Shown one piece after another: positions 18 to 32,054 of a DNA stretch of 40,612 nt (position 1 is its first letter; every line of letters begins with the position of its first letter). A model generated the notes under the pieces. The model worked only from the letters and a program-made list of their open reading frames with translations, ran no database searches and had not been told where the DNA came from. Made by a program: the position numbers and the translations under genes. Source of the DNA: Chryseobacterium gleum. GTDB lineage: Bacteria > Bacteroidota > Bacteroidia > Flavobacteriales > Schleiferiaceae. Where the stretch lies: positions 1-40,612 of the forward strand of contig CAMCXO010000024.1 in NCBI GenBank assembly GCA_945883565.1, in the 5' to 3' direction.

Positions 18-38
18 ATGTCGCCCCTTCGGGGCTTT
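18..38. repeat. TTCG hairpin repeat, copy 1
   Basis: A 21-base unit (ATGTCGCCCC, then TTCGGGGCTTT) identical to that at 67-87. Each contains GCCCC and GGGGC arms around a TTC loop, so each can fold into a short, very GC-rich hairpin followed by T residues. Similar GCCCC-TTC-GGGGC elements are, to my knowledge, frequent in intergenic DNA of Bacteroidota; whether they act as terminators, as RNA-protecting ends or as passive repeats cannot be told from here. Confidence 0.75.
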
Positions 39-66
39 AGGTTGTGGGTACGGTTATTCTATAATC

Positions 67-87
67 ATGTCGCCCCTTCGGGGCTTT
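67..87. repeat. TTCG hairpin repeat, copy 2
   Basis: Perfect second copy of the 21-base hairpin unit at 18-38, in the same orientation and starting 49 bases after it. The sequence between the copies is A/T-rich and not itself repeated. Two units are too few, and the unit too palindromic, for a CRISPR array. Confidence 0.75.
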
Positions 88-212
88 GTTTTAGTTTATT
101 TTTTTCTCTTGTTTTTCAAGTCAGCTTCCTGAAAGGGATGAGGATTTGAATGGTGTTTGTTGGGACAAATGGGACTTTAGGGACGAAGCTGTATGCTGTT
201 TGGGATTTGCGG

Positions 213-375
213 CAGGGATTGCAGCGGAAAGCCCGGAAGCGCAATGTGGTATTTGGTACTGGAGAAAGAATTTATTAGGCGCTGAGGACTTGGAGCGGAA
301 AGCCCGGCCCGCGAGGGGCACGATAATACCTTGATTTTGCTAAAACCATTTGCCCCGCGCGGGGGCGCCCAAATG
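213..375. repeat. Composite structured intergenic repeat, copy A
   Basis: Three conserved blocks are separated by diverged spacers. Block 1 is at 213-234 (core TTGCAGCGGAAAGCCC). Block 2 is at 284-318 (core GAGCGGAAAGCCCGGCCC, ending GCGAGGGG). Block 3 is at 359-370 (GCGGGGGCGCCC). Copy B at 29034-29190 has the same blocks, with the same 71-base block 1 to block 2 distance and a 74- versus 75-base block 2 to block 3 distance. In the first spacer AGCGC (238-242) can pair with GCGCT (279-283), directly against block 2. Block 3 here also sits in a larger hairpin closed by CATTTG and CAAATG (347-375). The element lies about 20 bases beyond the stop of the minus-strand gene ending at 396, so a 3'-end role is possible. 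Confidence 0.85.
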
Positions 376-27114: not shown

Positions 27115-27879
27115 TTAAGACTGTTCTATCCAAGCTAGAAATTCAGTTACTTTCAAACGGCTTACTACGAGAGGTTCTTTGATAATGAGATCGGTTTTAA
27201 CCATAACCTTTCGATTAAAGTAAGGTTGAATTTCCTTGATCGCCTTTTTGTTTAACAGAACCTGACGGTTAATTCTAAAGAATAGAGTTGGGTCGATAAA
27301 AGGTTCCATTTCAGACAAGGATTTAAAAACCGGATAGCGTTGGTTTTCGAATGTAAAAACGTAAAGAATCTCGTTTTCCACTATAAAAAAGGCAATATTG
27401 GCAAGTGGGATGGGAATGAAACTGTCGCGGTAGTTAACCAAAATGGAAGATTTGTAAACCGCTTTTTTATGGTAGGCTTGTTGTAAAAGACTTAAAATTT
27501 CGCTGTTGGGTTTCAAAGTTTCTTTTAAGGATTCATACTTTGTGAGTGCTGATTTTACATCCTCTTCCTTAACAGGTTTCAGAATATAGTCGATACCATT
27601 GGTTTTGAAAGCTTGAAGAGCATATTGATCGTAGGCAGTGCAAAATATAATTGGGCATTTGGGCTTTACTTGAGAGAATATTTCAAAACTCAATCCGTCT
27701 GCCAGTTGAATGTCGGCAAAAATGAGATCCGGCTCCTGAGGCAAATTGGACAAATATTTTATGGCCCCTTCTACGCTTTCAATAGGTTGAAGAATAATGG
27801 CATTTGGGTTAAGTTGCTCAATAATTTCACTTAGTAAATGAGCATTATGGGTTTCATCCTCAATAATCAATACCTTCAT
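27115..27879 (-). CDS. LytTR-family response regulator
   Basis: 254 residues. Receiver domain 1-120 with acidic pocket IIEDETHN, phosphoacceptor Asp at about 56 (DLIFADIQLADG) and Lys in YILKPVKEED. The C-terminal LytTR DNA-binding domain (about 145-254) has NRQVLLNKKAI and ends SRLKVTEFLAWIEQ. Its ATG overlaps the stop of the kinase gene (ATGA), so the pair is translationally coupled. It is the probable binder of the direct repeats at 27081-27114, directly after its own stop, and thereby regulator of the efflux operon. Confidence 0.92.
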   Translation of the reverse strand: MKVLIIEDETHNAHLLSEIIEQLNPNAIILQPIESVEGAIKYLSNLPQEPDLIFADIQLADGLSFEIFSQVKPKCPIIFCTAYDQYALQAFKTNGIDYILKPVKEEDVKSALTKYESLKETLKPNSEILSLLQQAYHKKAVYKSSILVNYRDSFIPIPLANIAFFIVENEILYVFTFENQRYPVFKSLSEMEPFIDPTLFFRINRQVLLNKKAIKEIQPYFNRKVMVKTDLIIKEPLVVSRLKVTEFLAWIEQS

Positions 27880-28898
27880 GGTTCGAGCAATTTTATGGTT
27901 ACGCTGTATACCGATTCATTTGAAAATATTTGAACCCCATTGTAAACATTCAATAAGGCATACCTTTTATCAAGATTTTGCAAACCAATTCCCGATGCTT
28001 CTTCTGTTTGTGATTTGGGTTGTAAATTGTTTTCTACTACAATGCTGTTTATACCGGAATTGTATACTTTAATTCGCAAAGGTTTTTCTTTCGATACAAT
28101 GTTGTGTTTTACACAATTTTCCAGCAATAATTGCAAAGTGAAAGTGGGGATTTTTAAGTTGTGCATTTCTTGTGGAATGTCAATTTCTATGCTCAACCTA
28201 TTCTCGTATCGGGCGAACAGTAGAAACGAATAATCGTCAATAAACTTTAGTTCATCTTTTAATGGAACAGTATCTATTTCTTTGTTGGTTAAGAGCAATC
28301 TGTAGATGTCGGTAAGTTTGATTACAAATTGCTCGGCATTTTTATTCGAAGAGCGAATCATAGAGCGCAAAGAAGAGAGAGAGTTAAACAAAAAATGTGG
28401 ACTTATTTGCTGTCTCAGAATTTCAAATTGTGCCCGAATGTTTTCGGTTTTCAACATTTGATTTTGCAACAAGACGTATTGGTTTTTCGCATTTAGATTT
28501 AAGGTGTATTGAATAAGGTAAATGATGGAAATGCTTACAGTTCCCTTCATTATAATAATGGTGTAATTGTATGCTCTTTCGAGTTGGAAGCTGTTGGGCA
28601 AAAGTGTGTTTAGGAGAACGAATAGCATTAAAAGCAGGCCATTGGCCGGCAGAATAATCAAGATTTTAGCGGTGAGATTCCATTTTTGGTAGTGGAATAG
28701 AAACAGATTGGTGAGCATGGAATTAAGGTACCAGGCTGCCAAGAGGAAACCAAATGCCGGAAACCATAACATCAGAATGTTAGATGTATTTAAGTCTGAT
28801 TGCGGCAAGCTGTTTGTAATAGCGCCGAAGAGCGATAAAATGGCTGAGAACAGCAGGGCTAACTTCCAGTTTTTGATGTTTTTTGGTTTGATTTCCAT
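27876..28898 (-). CDS. LytS/YpdA-type sensor histidine kinase
   Basis: About 340 residues. Four membrane segments fill about 12-135, then a short coiled coil (KNQYVLLQNQMLK), then the His_kinase domain with the phosphorylated His in QQISPHFLFNSLSSL (about 164) and an HATPase part with LQLLLENCVKHNI and EEASGIGLQNLDKRY. It senses with its membrane domain and phosphorylates the LytTR regulator encoded next. The ATG at 28898 is preferred to an in-frame TTG three codons upstream. It is the first gene of the minus-strand locus; the composite repeat copy B lies upstream. Confidence 0.92.
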   Translation of the reverse strand: MEIKPKNIKNWKLALLFSAILSLFGAITNSLPQSDLNTSNILMLWFPAFGFLLAAWYLNSMLTNLFLFHYQKWNLTAKILIILPANGLLLMLFVLLNTLLPNSFQLERAYNYTIIIMKGTVSISIIYLIQYTLNLNAKNQYVLLQNQMLKTENIRAQFEILRQQISPHFLFNSLSSLRSMIRSSNKNAEQFVIKLTDIYRLLLTNKEIDTVPLKDELKFIDDYSFLLFARYENRLSIEIDIPQEMHNLKIPTFTLQLLLENCVKHNIVSKEKPLRIKVYNSGINSIVVENNLQPKSQTEEASGIGLQNLDKRYALLNVYNGVQIFSNESVYSVTIKLLEP

Positions 28899-29326
28899 GA
28901 GGTTCAAAAGTGCAATTAAAGCTCTAATCAGGAGGTTTTGTTGACAGAATTCTTTAGTGAGGCCTTAGACTAAGTGATGAAATGTTAGGTATTGCCTTTA
29001 GAGGCCGCTTTAGAGGATGCAGAATGAATGCGCCAGGGATTGCAGCGGAAAGCCCACAGCCGCGCCCGTATTTGGGTTTGGTTTTGGGCTTTTTTATGCG
29101 CGGCGAGGACTTGCAGCGGAAAGCCCGGCCCGCGAGGGGTAGATGAGATTTGGGTTTTGTGGGTGTTTTATAGCCCGAGCGGGGGCGCCCCATCTGCTAA
29201 ATAAGGGGGTTGAGCTAAGGGCCATAGTTCGTGGGTATGGCTTGGTTTGCGTGCATGGTGCTTGGTGCTTGGTAAGAGAAGCCGTTTTTTGCAGCGGATT
29301 ATACCAGAGCAAAGGATTAATTTGCT
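28899..29326. other. Gene-free intergenic stretch around composite repeat copy B
   Basis: No credible gene is seen. The minus-strand open frames (28954-29193 and 29094-29312) are read through the repeat blocks and share pseudo-peptide strings with the first intergenic region. The stretch holds copy B of the composite repeat (29034-29190), a minor TGGTGCT duplication (29256-29273), and presumably the promoter of the LytS-type kinase gene, for which no clear boxes were found. It is also the 3' region of the phosphodiesterase-sulfotransferase gene. Confidence 0.75.
29034..29190. repeat. Composite structured intergenic repeat, copy B
   Basis: Same architecture as copy A. Block 1 (29034-29055) is identical to 213-234 over 22 bases. 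Block 2 (29105-29139) matches 284-318 at 34 of 35 positions. Block 3 (29179-29190) is identical to 359-370. The spacers differ almost completely in sequence but keep their length (49 bases in the first). GCCGCGC (29059-29065) pairs with GCGCGGC (29098-29104), at exactly the positions of the copy A stem, with both bases of two pairs changed. It lies about 140 bases beyond the stop of the phosphodiesterase-sulfotransferase gene, in the same orientation to that gene as copy A is to the oxidoreductase gene. Confidence 0.87.
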
Positions 29327-31861
29327 TTAAATAAGTTTACTTCTATAAAGGCTTGGGTCGAGTGCAGTCCAAATGCGTTCGTATGGCAGGTCTTTTTCAA
29401 GAAGGGCTTTAAGTAAGGCTTCTATATGGGCATCGCGCTCCATAAGCCGTTCAAAGTCTATTTCTATAAAGTCGATATGTGGCTGGCTTTGCATCCACAA
29501 AAAGGCCTTTTGTTGTTGATTTTCGAGGGTATTGGCCATGGCCAGCGGAAAATCGCGCATGGCTTTTGCCCGATTTTTGCCAAGCATAACTTGTTGGCTT
29601 ACTACAATTTCGGCCATAGAACGACGCATATATACCACTTTATAGCGTTGTTTAGCCGGCAAAAGGGGCAATAGAGGGGCCACTACTTTCACCACTTTGC
29701 CGTGGGCTTGCTTTAGCCAGTCTTTGTCGCTGCCCAAGCGTTTAACCGCATCCAGTTCAAAGTAGCCTTTAGGATTGCTCTCATCGGGTAAACGGCTTTG
29801 GTCGGTTAGGGTTTCGAGGCCTAAAGATTCGAGCATTTGCATCATGAGGCTGGTGCCCGAGCGGGGCAAGCCGGACACTACCACTACGGCATCGCTTTGC
29901 AATTGCTGAATGGTTTGTTTTAGGTATTCCGCTTTTTCTTTTTGGTTTAAAAAATCGCCATACAGTTCTTCGAGTTGAAGCAATATTCGCAAACTACCTG
30001 GATTCATTAAATGGGCTATTTCGAAAGCTTGAGCGCTTTGTTCGTAGGCCCCTAATGCTTTTAAACATTCGCCCAAATAAAAATGGGCTTTGGGTTGGGC
30101 GTAAAGTTGTTCAACAGATTCGAGCAAGCGGTCGAGGGCTTCTTCGTAACGGCCCAAACGCAGCAAGCAAAAACCGGCCCCTGTAAGCGCCAAGGTGTTG
30201 TGAACATCGAGCGAAATGGCTTTTAGGTAATGTTCGAGGGCAGGGGCGTACTCCATTTTTTGTTGATACACTACGGCCACCTGATTAATTAGACCTACAT
30301 CTTGGGGTGCCAGTTTTAATAGCTTATCGAAACCAGTTTGGGCTTGAACAAATTGTCCGGTGGCAGTAGCAATAAGGCTTTCCAGAAACAACAACCTTGG
30401 GCTGTTTTTCAAATTTTCGTCTTCAATTTGCTTTAGCCACTGCGCCGCTTTGGGTGCTTCTTTCATTCGGATGGCCACCCGAACCAATTTATCGAGATAC
30501 CTGAAAGCCGTAGGATCTTCTTCCCAAAGTTCTTGTAATAGGGCATAAGCCTCTCTATACTTACCGCCATCGAGATATGAAACCGCCAGGTTGTACCGGT
30601 TTTCGCGCAAAGCACGGGTCATATGGGCCCGTTTATCGGAGCCTATGGGTTCTATATACCCCAGATCTTCCAGTTGTTTTAGTCCCTCAGCGGCATTTTC
30701 GTTTTGAGAATGCGCAAAAAGATGTTGCCCACTGTAACCCGGTATTTGTTCCCAGCTGTCGATATAGTTAACGGTTTCTGCTTTTTCAAAACACTGTATA
30801 AGCACACTGCCTTCCATGTCTCGGCCCACCGGAAGCCCAAAAAGATGGAGCAGAGTAGGGGCAATATCGAGCAAGCTGGAGCCATATACTTTTTCATTTT
30901 GTTTAATGCCCGGGCCTTTAAGCGCGAAAATGCCGAAGTGACGGTGTTCGTGAGCAGGAGCTGCCGGCTCTATAGGAAGGACCGTAGGCCGCAAATGGTC
31001 GCTGTGAAAGCCATGATCAGAAATCAGCATCACATAGGTATCGGGTTCTACCATTTGCAAGAGCCGATCGAGCATCATATCGTGAAACATATAGGCCGCA
31101 CTCACCACCTCCTGATAAATCTCAAAGTCTTCTTGTTTAATGTGTTCGCGCTTAGGTGGATGAAAGCGCATGGCCAAATGCGAAAAATGGTCGATGGCAT
31201 CGTGGTAAATGGCCATAAAATCGCAGGCCTTATGTTCCAGCAAATAGGTAGAGGCATTGTGGATGCTGGCGGCATGGCTAAGTACTTTGAGACAATTTTG
31301 AAGCCGTATGTTGCTGGTTATATCTAATTCGCGGGCTTTAGGTATGAATGGCAGCAGCATTTCGGCGGTTAGGTGAGCAGCCGGAAACCTAAGGCTTTTG
31401 AGCTTTTCGTACAATTCGGGAGGATGTATGGCTTCGCGTTCCAAAGGCCATAAATCCGGATGGCCTTCGCTGCCCTTTTGATAAAAATTAGACACCATAC
31501 AGCCATGTATGGGTTCGGCCGGGTGGCTGGGCCACCATCCCACAACATTCGAGCGCAAACCGTTTTGTGTGAAGATGTTCCAGATGGCTTTAACCTTTCG
31601 CGAGCTCACATTTACAGGCCTTAAGGCGCTTCCATCGGGCGTGGCTTCTACAAAACCATGAATGCCATGCTGCCAGGCGCGTTTTCCAGAGGCAATAGAA
31701 GTCCAAAGCATGGGCGATAAAACCGGTTGAAGGGTGGCCAAATTGCCATGAACACCCTCACGAAGAAAAGCCTGAAGGCTTGGCATTTTACCGGCTGCCA
31801 TAAGGGGCTCAATAACTTTCCAATCGGCGGCATCCCAACCAATGAGCAATACTTTAGGCAT
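29327..31861 (-). CDS. Type I phosphodiesterase - TPR - sulfotransferase fusion protein
   Basis: About 844 residues, no signal peptide. Residues 1-360 form an alkaline-phosphatase-superfamily phosphodiesterase/pyrophosphatase: metal ligand in LIGWDAADW, Ser nucleophile region LSPMLWTSIASG, then YHDAIDHFSHL, LISDHGFHSDH (about 280) and an HRHFG His. Residues about 410-650 are TPR-like helical repeats (ALEHYLKAISLDVHNTLAL, FYLGECLKALGAYEQSAQAF). Residues about 655-844 are a sulfotransferase with the PAPS 5'-phosphosulfate loop GLPRSGTS and a 3'-phosphate segment VVYMRRSMAEIVVSQ. Both catalytic ends look intact. The ATG at 31861 is chosen because it begins the conserved beta strand; a longer frame to 32014 overlaps a small gene. 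It may transfer sulfate and hydrolyse a phosphodiester on an envelope glycan or lipid; the real substrate is unknown. Confidence 0.83.
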   Translation of the reverse strand: MPKVLLIGWDAADWKVIEPLMAAGKMPSLQAFLREGVHGNLATLQPVLSPMLWTSIASGKRAWQHGIHGFVEATPDGSALRPVNVSSRKVKAIWNIFTQNGLRSNVVGWWPSHPAEPIHGCMVSNFYQKGSEGHPDLWPLEREAIHPPELYEKLKSLRFPAAHLTAEMLLPFIPKARELDITSNIRLQNCLKVLSHAASIHNASTYLLEHKACDFMAIYHDAIDHFSHLAMRFHPPKREHIKQEDFEIYQEVVSAAYMFHDMMLDRLLQMVEPDTYVMLISDHGFHSDHLRPTVLPIEPAAPAHEHRHFGIFALKGPGIKQNEKVYGSSLLDIAPTLLHLFGLPVGRDMEGSVLIQCFEKAETVNYIDSWEQIPGYSGQHLFAHSQNENAAEGLKQLEDLGYIEPIGSDKRAHMTRALRENRYNLAVSYLDGGKYREAYALLQELWEEDPTAFRYLDKLVRVAIRMKEAPKAAQWLKQIEDENLKNSPRLLFLESLIATATGQFVQAQTGFDKLLKLAPQDVGLINQVAVVYQQKMEYAPALEHYLKAISLDVHNTLALTGAGFCLLRLGRYEEALDRLLESVEQLYAQPKAHFYLGECLKALGAYEQSAQAFEIAHLMNPGSLRILLQLEELYGDFLNQKEKAEYLKQTIQQLQSDAVVVVSGLPRSGTSLMMQMLESLGLETLTDQSRLPDESNPKGYFELDAVKRLGSDKDWLKQAHGKVVKVVAPLLPLLPAKQRYKVVYMRRSMAEIVVSQQVMLGKNRAKAMRDFPLAMANTLENQQQKAFLWMQSQPHIDFIEIDFERLMERDAHIEALLKALLEKDLPYERIWTALDPSLYRSKLI

Positions 31862-32054
31862 TGGTGGTGTTTGTAGAGGGTGGTATAATGGGGTTCGGGT
31901 TGTTGGTTTGTTTAGGCAGGGGTATGTTAATGGGGTAGAGTTCGCGCCATATTTCGACCGCCCGGTAACCATACGCCAAAATGGCCAAGGCGCCTTGTGG
32001 GCCCATTTGAGCAATTAACTGCTTAAGAGCGACATCTTGGGGTGCTTCTTCCAT
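31854..32054 (-). CDS. Small 66-residue protein ahead of the fusion enzyme
   Basis: Starts at an ATG 15 bases after the stop of the preceding gene and ends 8 bases inside the fusion-enzyme gene, a spacing typical of operon genes. The first 40 residues (MEEAPQDVALKQLIAQMGPQ, then GALAILAYGYRAVEIWRELY) form one or two plausible helices with an even mix of charged and hydrophobic residues; the tail is Pro/Asn/Thr-rich (NPNPIIPPSTNTT). No signal peptide or clear membrane segment. No family recognised. The gene is supported by position and composition, not by homology; an alternative is that it is chance coding within a leader. Confidence 0.55.
   Translation of the reverse strand: MEEAPQDVALKQLIAQMGPQGALAILAYGYRAVEIWRELYPINIPLPKQTNNPNPIIPPSTNTTNA

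Follow-up and report, generated by a model that had tools for sequence, protein, structure and literature searches.

Two intergenic repeats, copies A and B, in a 40,612-nucleotide stretch of DNA (the window; contig C24 of a 2.86-Mb Chryseobacterium gleum assembly, referred to as G000) were interpreted, with about an even chance of being right, as a REP-like, non-autonomous dispersed repeat selected for the fold of a single strand. The basis for this consisted of a fold with covariation, copy numbers, cores lying in unrelated flanks, a patchy distribution and an A-rich 3' flank.

An earlier, sequence-only reading had paired the two copies, and its account of them was reproduced, its outer limits alone needing to be shifted. 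Block 1 was identical at 22 of 22 bases (213-234 and 29034-29055) and block 2 at 34 of 35 (284-318 and 29105-29139), the 49-base spacers matching at 15 of 49 positions and being otherwise diverged. All five tip-stem pairs (238-242/279-283 in A, 29059-29063/29100-29104 in B) were Watson-Crick in both copies, two of them being double changes from A to B (A-T to G-C, G-C to C-G), and the tip stem of copy B had two pairs more than that of copy A. Block 3, GCGGGGGCGCCC, was read directly at 359-370 (A) and 29179-29190 (B). Copy A had been drawn to position 375; the common part stops at 370, and no common word reaches 375. The element starts move to 209 (A) and 29030 (B) once helix P1 is counted in (Table 1). 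Copy A lay 25 nt beyond the stop of the minus-strand gene at 396-1313, and copy B 136 nt beyond the stop of one minus-strand gene (29327-32014) and 122 nt upstream of the start of another (27876-28907). The plus strand of both copies is antisense to these adjoining genes.

Table 1. Parts of copies A and B and of the adjoining flank, in window positions
Feature	Positions	Strand	Basis or remark
Copy A, whole element (three-way junction)	209-370	+	Alignment A1, pair counts; model match 205-377
Copy A, P1 5' strand GCGGC	209-213	+	One of five pairs mismatched in copy A
Copy A, 5' strand of P2: block 1, including the GNA and GGA sides of the loops, followed by tip stem 238-242	215-242	+	
Copy A, 3' strand of P2: tip stem 279-283 followed by the initial part of block 2	279-305	+	
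Copy A, hairpin P3 (CCCGC-GA-GGGGC ... GCCCC-GC-GCGGG)	308-363	+	
Copy A, P1 3' strand GGCGC	364-368	+	
Copy B, whole element	29030-29190	+	Model match 29026-29197
Copy B, P1 5' strand GCGCC	29030-29034	+	
Copy B, P2 5' strand with seven-pair tip stem 29059-29065	29036-29065	+	
Copy B, P2 3' strand	29098-29126	+	
Copy B, hairpin P3 (CCCGC-GA-GGGG ... GCCC-GA-GCGGG)	29129-29183	+	
Copy B, P1 3' strand GGCGC	29184-29188	+	
5' flank of copy A: repeat common to other copies (cluster U1) and to the end of contig C48	1-208	+	

Fold of the repeat unit

The unit was closed by a helix, P1, and included a long arm, P2, as well as, in its usual form, a hairpin, P3. From a sequence-only alignment of 21 copies of G000, RNAalifold returned this three-way junction without any structure hint, the consensus containing 4 of 5 P1 pairs, most of P2 and 8 of 10 P3 pairs; the covariation term was small (-0.36) because the copies of this genome are alike. 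With a structure drawn by hand, 97.4% of the cells in these copies paired, relative to 37-51% for slid structures, and both sides changed in 6 of 32 pairs. For 43 copies from three other genomes (alignment A3, which was fitted to the model and so favours the structure), 95.3% of cells paired, relative to 31-43% when slid, and both sides changed in 28 of the 32 pairs. With covariation this strong, both in the 21 own copies and in the 43 copies of three genomes, the fold and selection on it, as proposed by the sequence-only reading, were well supported. The stem on which that proposal had been founded is genuine, yet it is just the tip stem of one arm. Numerous copies of random spacing lacking covariation had been named as the outcome that would speak against it: copies were many and their spacing varied (69-75 or 104 nt between blocks 1 and 2 in 21 copies), and the covariation was strong. 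A neutral remnant of an old duplication, which has nothing in its favour beyond the two window copies and which had been denied from the outset, is refuted by the covariation, is also contradicted by the breadth of the family across the class, and retains next to no probability.

P2 carried conserved GNA/GGA loops and an exchangeable tip. In order, it ran GGG, A.G, UU/AA, GNA/GGA loop, GC/GC, GGA/GNA loop, AAG/CUU, C.A, CC/GG and tip stem, the sequence of the last varying from copy to copy. The first loop was nearly invariant in alignment A3 (G17 in 42 of 42, A19 in 42 of 43, G220 in 41 of 43, A222 in 43 of 43), and in the second G22 and A217 were present in 43 of 43, A24 in only 33 of 43 and G215 in 33 of 42. 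G.A mismatches of the GNA/GGA type can stack as sheared pairs. P1 was GCGCC/GGCGC in G000 and GCGTG/CACGC in most of the other copies shown. Three results of this part of the analysis were less favourable. In 4 of the 21 own copies, one of them copy A, one of the five P1 pairs failed; P3 was missing from most copies of G006 and G009; and copy A folded alone was no better than its shuffles on the plus strand (RNA z 1.24, DNA z 0.06), with a weak signal on the minus strand (z -1.05). All three count against the preferred reading. Among 79 rows, 38 had a locatable P3 region (12 nt or longer), and in 28 of these 38 the fold z was below -2.

Rearranged forms were also present. At locus L129 (1240-1710; contig C2 of G000), a P2-like unit occurred four times in succession, at intervals of about 100 bases, followed by block 2 and a P1 strand, a chain that is an expansion between the direct-repeat blocks, and a single-block copy at L395 (1631-1696) represented the deletion form. 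Both forms are expected from recombination between two near-identical blocks. Separately, a motif ATCATGGTTCAGACA and its reverse, with a periodicity of about 11 bases, occurred inside long P2 loops and near unrelated ORFs (L130:1520-1560, L131:1270-1290, L132:1885-1900 and the P2 loop of the copies with 104-nt spacing); 32 sites with at most one mismatch were present in G000.

Family size and relation to Flavo-1

BLAST found 47 pieces of the repeat in G000, and a covariance model built from the 21 own copies gave at least 66 matches, at no fewer than 63 distinct places among those listed, numbers far beyond chance. All copy counts are lower bounds, 69 candidates per genome having been scored with this first model and 19 with the second. 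Such a search, called for by the sequence-only reading, was positive in 13 of 39 relatives at E 0.01 or better (own genome left out), namely G006 (at least 39 copies), G009 (27), G026 (18), G025 (16), G005 (9) and G013 (6), each number again being a minimum, and seven further relatives with one to three matches each; it came out empty in four congeners (80-94% complete), with zero matches to the first model. At the site of copy B, the four congeners had the orthologous gene with a different downstream neighbour and no element. A second model, built on 43 copies of G006, G009 and G025, matched 70 of the 148 further genomes of the class (71 of 149 when G000 is counted), and the shape thus recurs in about half of the genomes sampled. 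The distribution among relatives was patchy, and copy number and neighbours varied widely. The argE of G026 was identical to that of Flavobacterium limi, so that the order of the window takes in Flavobacterium and the phylum is probably Bacteroidota.

P2 aligned to the Rfam Flavo-1 model (RF01705) over all 76 positions, with the same internal-loop pattern and on the same strand. Copies A and B scored 29.3 and 30.9 bits, respectively, and the best match in G000 34.5 bits, relative to a gathering cut-off of 42; at the gathering score, Rfam gave no match in the window or in 20 loci of G000. Flavo-1 copies above the cut-off were present in G025, G026, G029 and G036. The window copies are accordingly not members of Flavo-1 by the Rfam rule, and are an extended relative of it by anatomy. 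Like Flavo-1, of which G026, G029 and G025 each have many copies, the family belongs to Bacteroidota and is present in many copies per genome, and it contains a Flavo-1-type arm with paired strands and GNA/GGA-type loops on the plus strand; it differs in that the 76 model positions do not cover its P1 and P3. Aligned Flavobacterium copies of Flavo-1 had the arm in common and P3 absent, and a three-pair closing helix (AGC/GCU) was possible by eye.

Flavo-1 was described in 2010 and, in the accessible text of Weinberg et al. (PMC2864571), was rated as probably RNA and not cis-regulatory; it has had no assigned function since. In F. psychrophilum, according to the accessible portions of the literature (PMC9723704 or PMC9029176), Flavo-1 matches fell in sense or antisense indistinctly, many of them outside transcribed regions, and some 5' transcribed regions coincided with matches. 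A 2022 review (PMC9723704 or PMC9029176) counted Flavo-1, in the part that was accessible, among the most abundant small-RNA families. No description of the three-way junction was found in the open-access literature as far as it could be consulted (subscription papers and supplements aside).

Strand, gene context and flanks

Among paired columns, G-U cells outnumbered A-C cells by 37 to 7 in alignment A2 and by 20 to 6 in A3, all cells coming from related copies. Because a wobble pair becomes an A-C mismatch when the opposite strand is read, the plus strand is the likelier object of selection, the tally being support and not proof. Of 120 elements sampled from seven genomes, 96 lay outside ORF calls (made with a crude ORF caller) and were countable: 22 were in convergent and 11 in divergent contexts, 21 in tandem sense and 28 in tandem antisense, and 14 had a neighbour on one side. 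The remaining 24 were left out as lying inside ORF calls (G006 14, G000 4 including copy B, G009 4, G026 1, G029 1). The pooled tandem contexts thus had no sense or antisense preference. A structured 3'-end RNA of the minus-strand genes, one of two identities offered by the sequence-only reading, was not supported by these counts, since the wobble cells favoured the strand antisense to those genes and the tandem contexts were divided.

A functional plus-strand RNA, that is, a small RNA or untranslated-region element whose three-way junction binds a protein or ligand and whose dispersal is incidental, is possible, if somewhat doubtful. The strand asymmetry and the near-invariant non-canonical loop residues speak for it, as do the 2010 rating of Flavo-1 (PMC2864571) and the partial coincidence of 5' transcribed regions with Flavo-1 in F. 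psychrophilum, both as far as the accessible texts go; the same F. psychrophilum paper places matches on either strand, with many untranscribed, which argues against it. The near-equal tandem contexts, the wide variation in copy number and neighbours, and the lack of a common promoter-like sequence upstream of 40 copies of G006 and G009 (outside the repeat families of G000) likewise weigh against a functional RNA. An intrinsic terminator was rejected, the 3' flank being A-rich and not T-rich (79 copies).

In the flank beyond the 3' end, A made up 4.05 of 6 nt in G006, 4.0 in G009 and 2.6 in G000. In most copies of G029 and G036, the A-run led into a hairpin resembling, by eye, the terminator of the neighbouring gene. 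The gene beyond the 3' end was convergent in 27 of 36 cases in G000, with its stop within about 80 nt, and in just 6 of 16 in G009, so that the convergent bias of G000 is not general.

The two boundaries behaved differently among 59 own copies fetched with their flanks: the 5' flank was joined with that of other copies in 27 (clusters of 12, 7, 6 and 2, each a different repeat) and the 3' flank in 3, which had a terminator-like hairpin in common. In G036, the numbers were 5 of 7 and 2 of 7, respectively; 5' flanks were shared by 2 of 18 copies in G006, by 0 of 20 in both G009 and G026, and by none in G029. For thirteen of the 59 own copies, the contig broke off less than 430 nt beyond the 5' boundary, a hint of long repeats on that side, and contig C48 ended inside an element. 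Window positions 20-90, within the 5' flank of copy A, contained a pair of GCCCCTTCGGGGC hairpins spaced by about 50 bases, which recurred upstream of other cluster U1 copies, and weak, sub-threshold matches to the Rfam family Acido-Lenti-1 fell in the same region. At L136, L137, L148 and L167, minisatellites built of 21-base units (GTTGAACGTTTGAAGCCGGCA and variants) stopped exactly at the 5' boundary of the element.

Dispersal, the search for a mover and exchange at argE-argH

In the eight most similar pairs of copies from G006, the cores were 93-97% identical, the downstream flanks 31-50% and the upstream flanks 20-57%, save for L196/L201 (76% over short remaining flanks). Spread of cores between unrelated sites was thus well supported, and the second identity offered by the sequence-only reading, a small non-autonomous mobile element, proved right in this respect. 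REP and BIME sequences are short intergenic hairpin repeats with many copies, a patchy occurrence between relatives and tandem or multiplied forms, and the window family resembles them in each of these features; it differs in being a three-way junction with non-canonical loops, not a simple palindrome, and in having no link to a REP-associated Y1 transposase (RAYT). MITE-type elements are small, non-coding and dispersed in unrelated flanks, as are the window copies, whose P1 is a closing helix of 5 bp and not a long terminal inverted repeat, and for which there was no excess of target duplications and no parent transposase among the families tested (Y1_Tnp, RVT_1).

The search for a mover covered these two transposon-related families. 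Thirty Y1_Tnp loci were inspected together with flanks of up to 1.5 kb to either side; two element blocks occurred at none of them, and one (L062) had a convincing half block. A REP sequence mobilised by a RAYT, which would suit the many intergenic hairpin copies and the two Y1_Tnp matches in G000, is extremely unlikely given these loci and the elements present in G005 and G025 without any Y1_Tnp match. RVT_1 was absent from G005, G009, G025 and G026, which bear at least 9, 27, 16 and 18 copies, respectively, and this bears on retroposition, by which an RNA ending in the core would be reverse-transcribed from a T-tract primer. Such a process would account for the constancy of the 3' end, for the A-richness of the sequence beyond it (although the A-run could instead be part of the target) and for 5' flanks being variable or shared in G000, and the excess of shared 5' over 3' flanks in G000 and G036 favours it; with no RVT_1 in four element-bearing genomes, no target duplications, 5' flanks hardly or never shared in G006, G009 and G026, and copies that begin at P1 and are not 5'-truncated, it is very unlikely. 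The likeness to SINE-like retroposons accordingly extended to the A-rich 3' end, and not to the reverse transcriptase or the target duplications.

Three further null results count against the REP-like reading: target duplications were no more frequent than in shuffled flanks across six genomes, plasmids and phages searched with one Flavobacterium copy gave no match, and no clean pair of filled and empty sites was obtained. Half-copies L279 and L280 and the doubtful match L281 were read for an ORF in the P2 loop, and none framed a gene.

If the REP-like reading holds, the folded single strand (ssDNA or RNA) would be recognised by a trans-acting factor and the cores would move as units. Their landing sites would be intergenic gaps where the 3' end abuts an A-tract, in G000 mostly behind a convergent gene, and, by analogy with REP/BIME, the cores might then persist as tolerated intergenic hairpins replaceable by other hairpin repeats. 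More tentatively, Flavo-1 may be the visible arm of a widespread Bacteroidota mobile element and not primarily a regulatory RNA, its folded strand (three-way junction, twin purine loops) possibly serving as substrate to an undescribed transposition system able to join the 3' end to A/T-tracts (for example, terminator tails) and to take 5' neighbours along. Were Flavo-1 one arm of such a branched, dispersed repeat, matches on either transcript strand would be accounted for, and annotating every match as an sRNA would call for caution.

The gap between argE and argH in Flavobacterium (L299-L378) offered a view of a single site. In each of 75 resolved species it held one of three unrelated hairpin repeats, namely Flavo-1 in reverse (34), a AATTCGTGAATTCGTGGC type (28) or a ACCTGTCGGGTTT type (13); 5 of 80 loci were left out for want of a recognised argH start (two hold Flavo-1, three another ORF). 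The three states required 29 changes on the gene tree, relative to a mean of 32.6 after shuffling (no more than 29 in 18 of 200 shuffles), and Flavo-1 alone 20 relative to 25.0 (as low in 14 of 500), fewer than when shuffled and hence indicating weak clustering. Exchange of hairpin repeats in this one gap is frequent, by insertion or by recombination of the whole gap. As far as the accessible accounts of horizontal regulatory transfer (exchange of intergenic alleles) go, the frequent change of whole-gap alternatives on the gene tree resembles it; a difference is that the alternatives here are hairpin repeats of a dispersed kind, exchanged across the species within one genus.

The alternation of the three repeats, with its 29 changes on the gene tree, and the tips that differ between species at this same site are what one would expect if hairpin-bearing intergenic alleles spread by homologous recombination and gene conversion with no transposition at all, the fold being kept because intergenic hairpins are useful. 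That explanation, which rests on the single gap looked at, appears unlikely for the family as a whole, as near-identical cores with unrelated 3' flanks (G006, G009) and the scatter over at least three dozen places in G000 go beyond allelic exchange alone. At six of the argE-argH loci (L310, L311, L316, L328, L365 and L367), about 45 bases (ACGAAGTTCACTGAACTCC...) were inserted within the Flavo-1 arm, apparently as a nested repeat.
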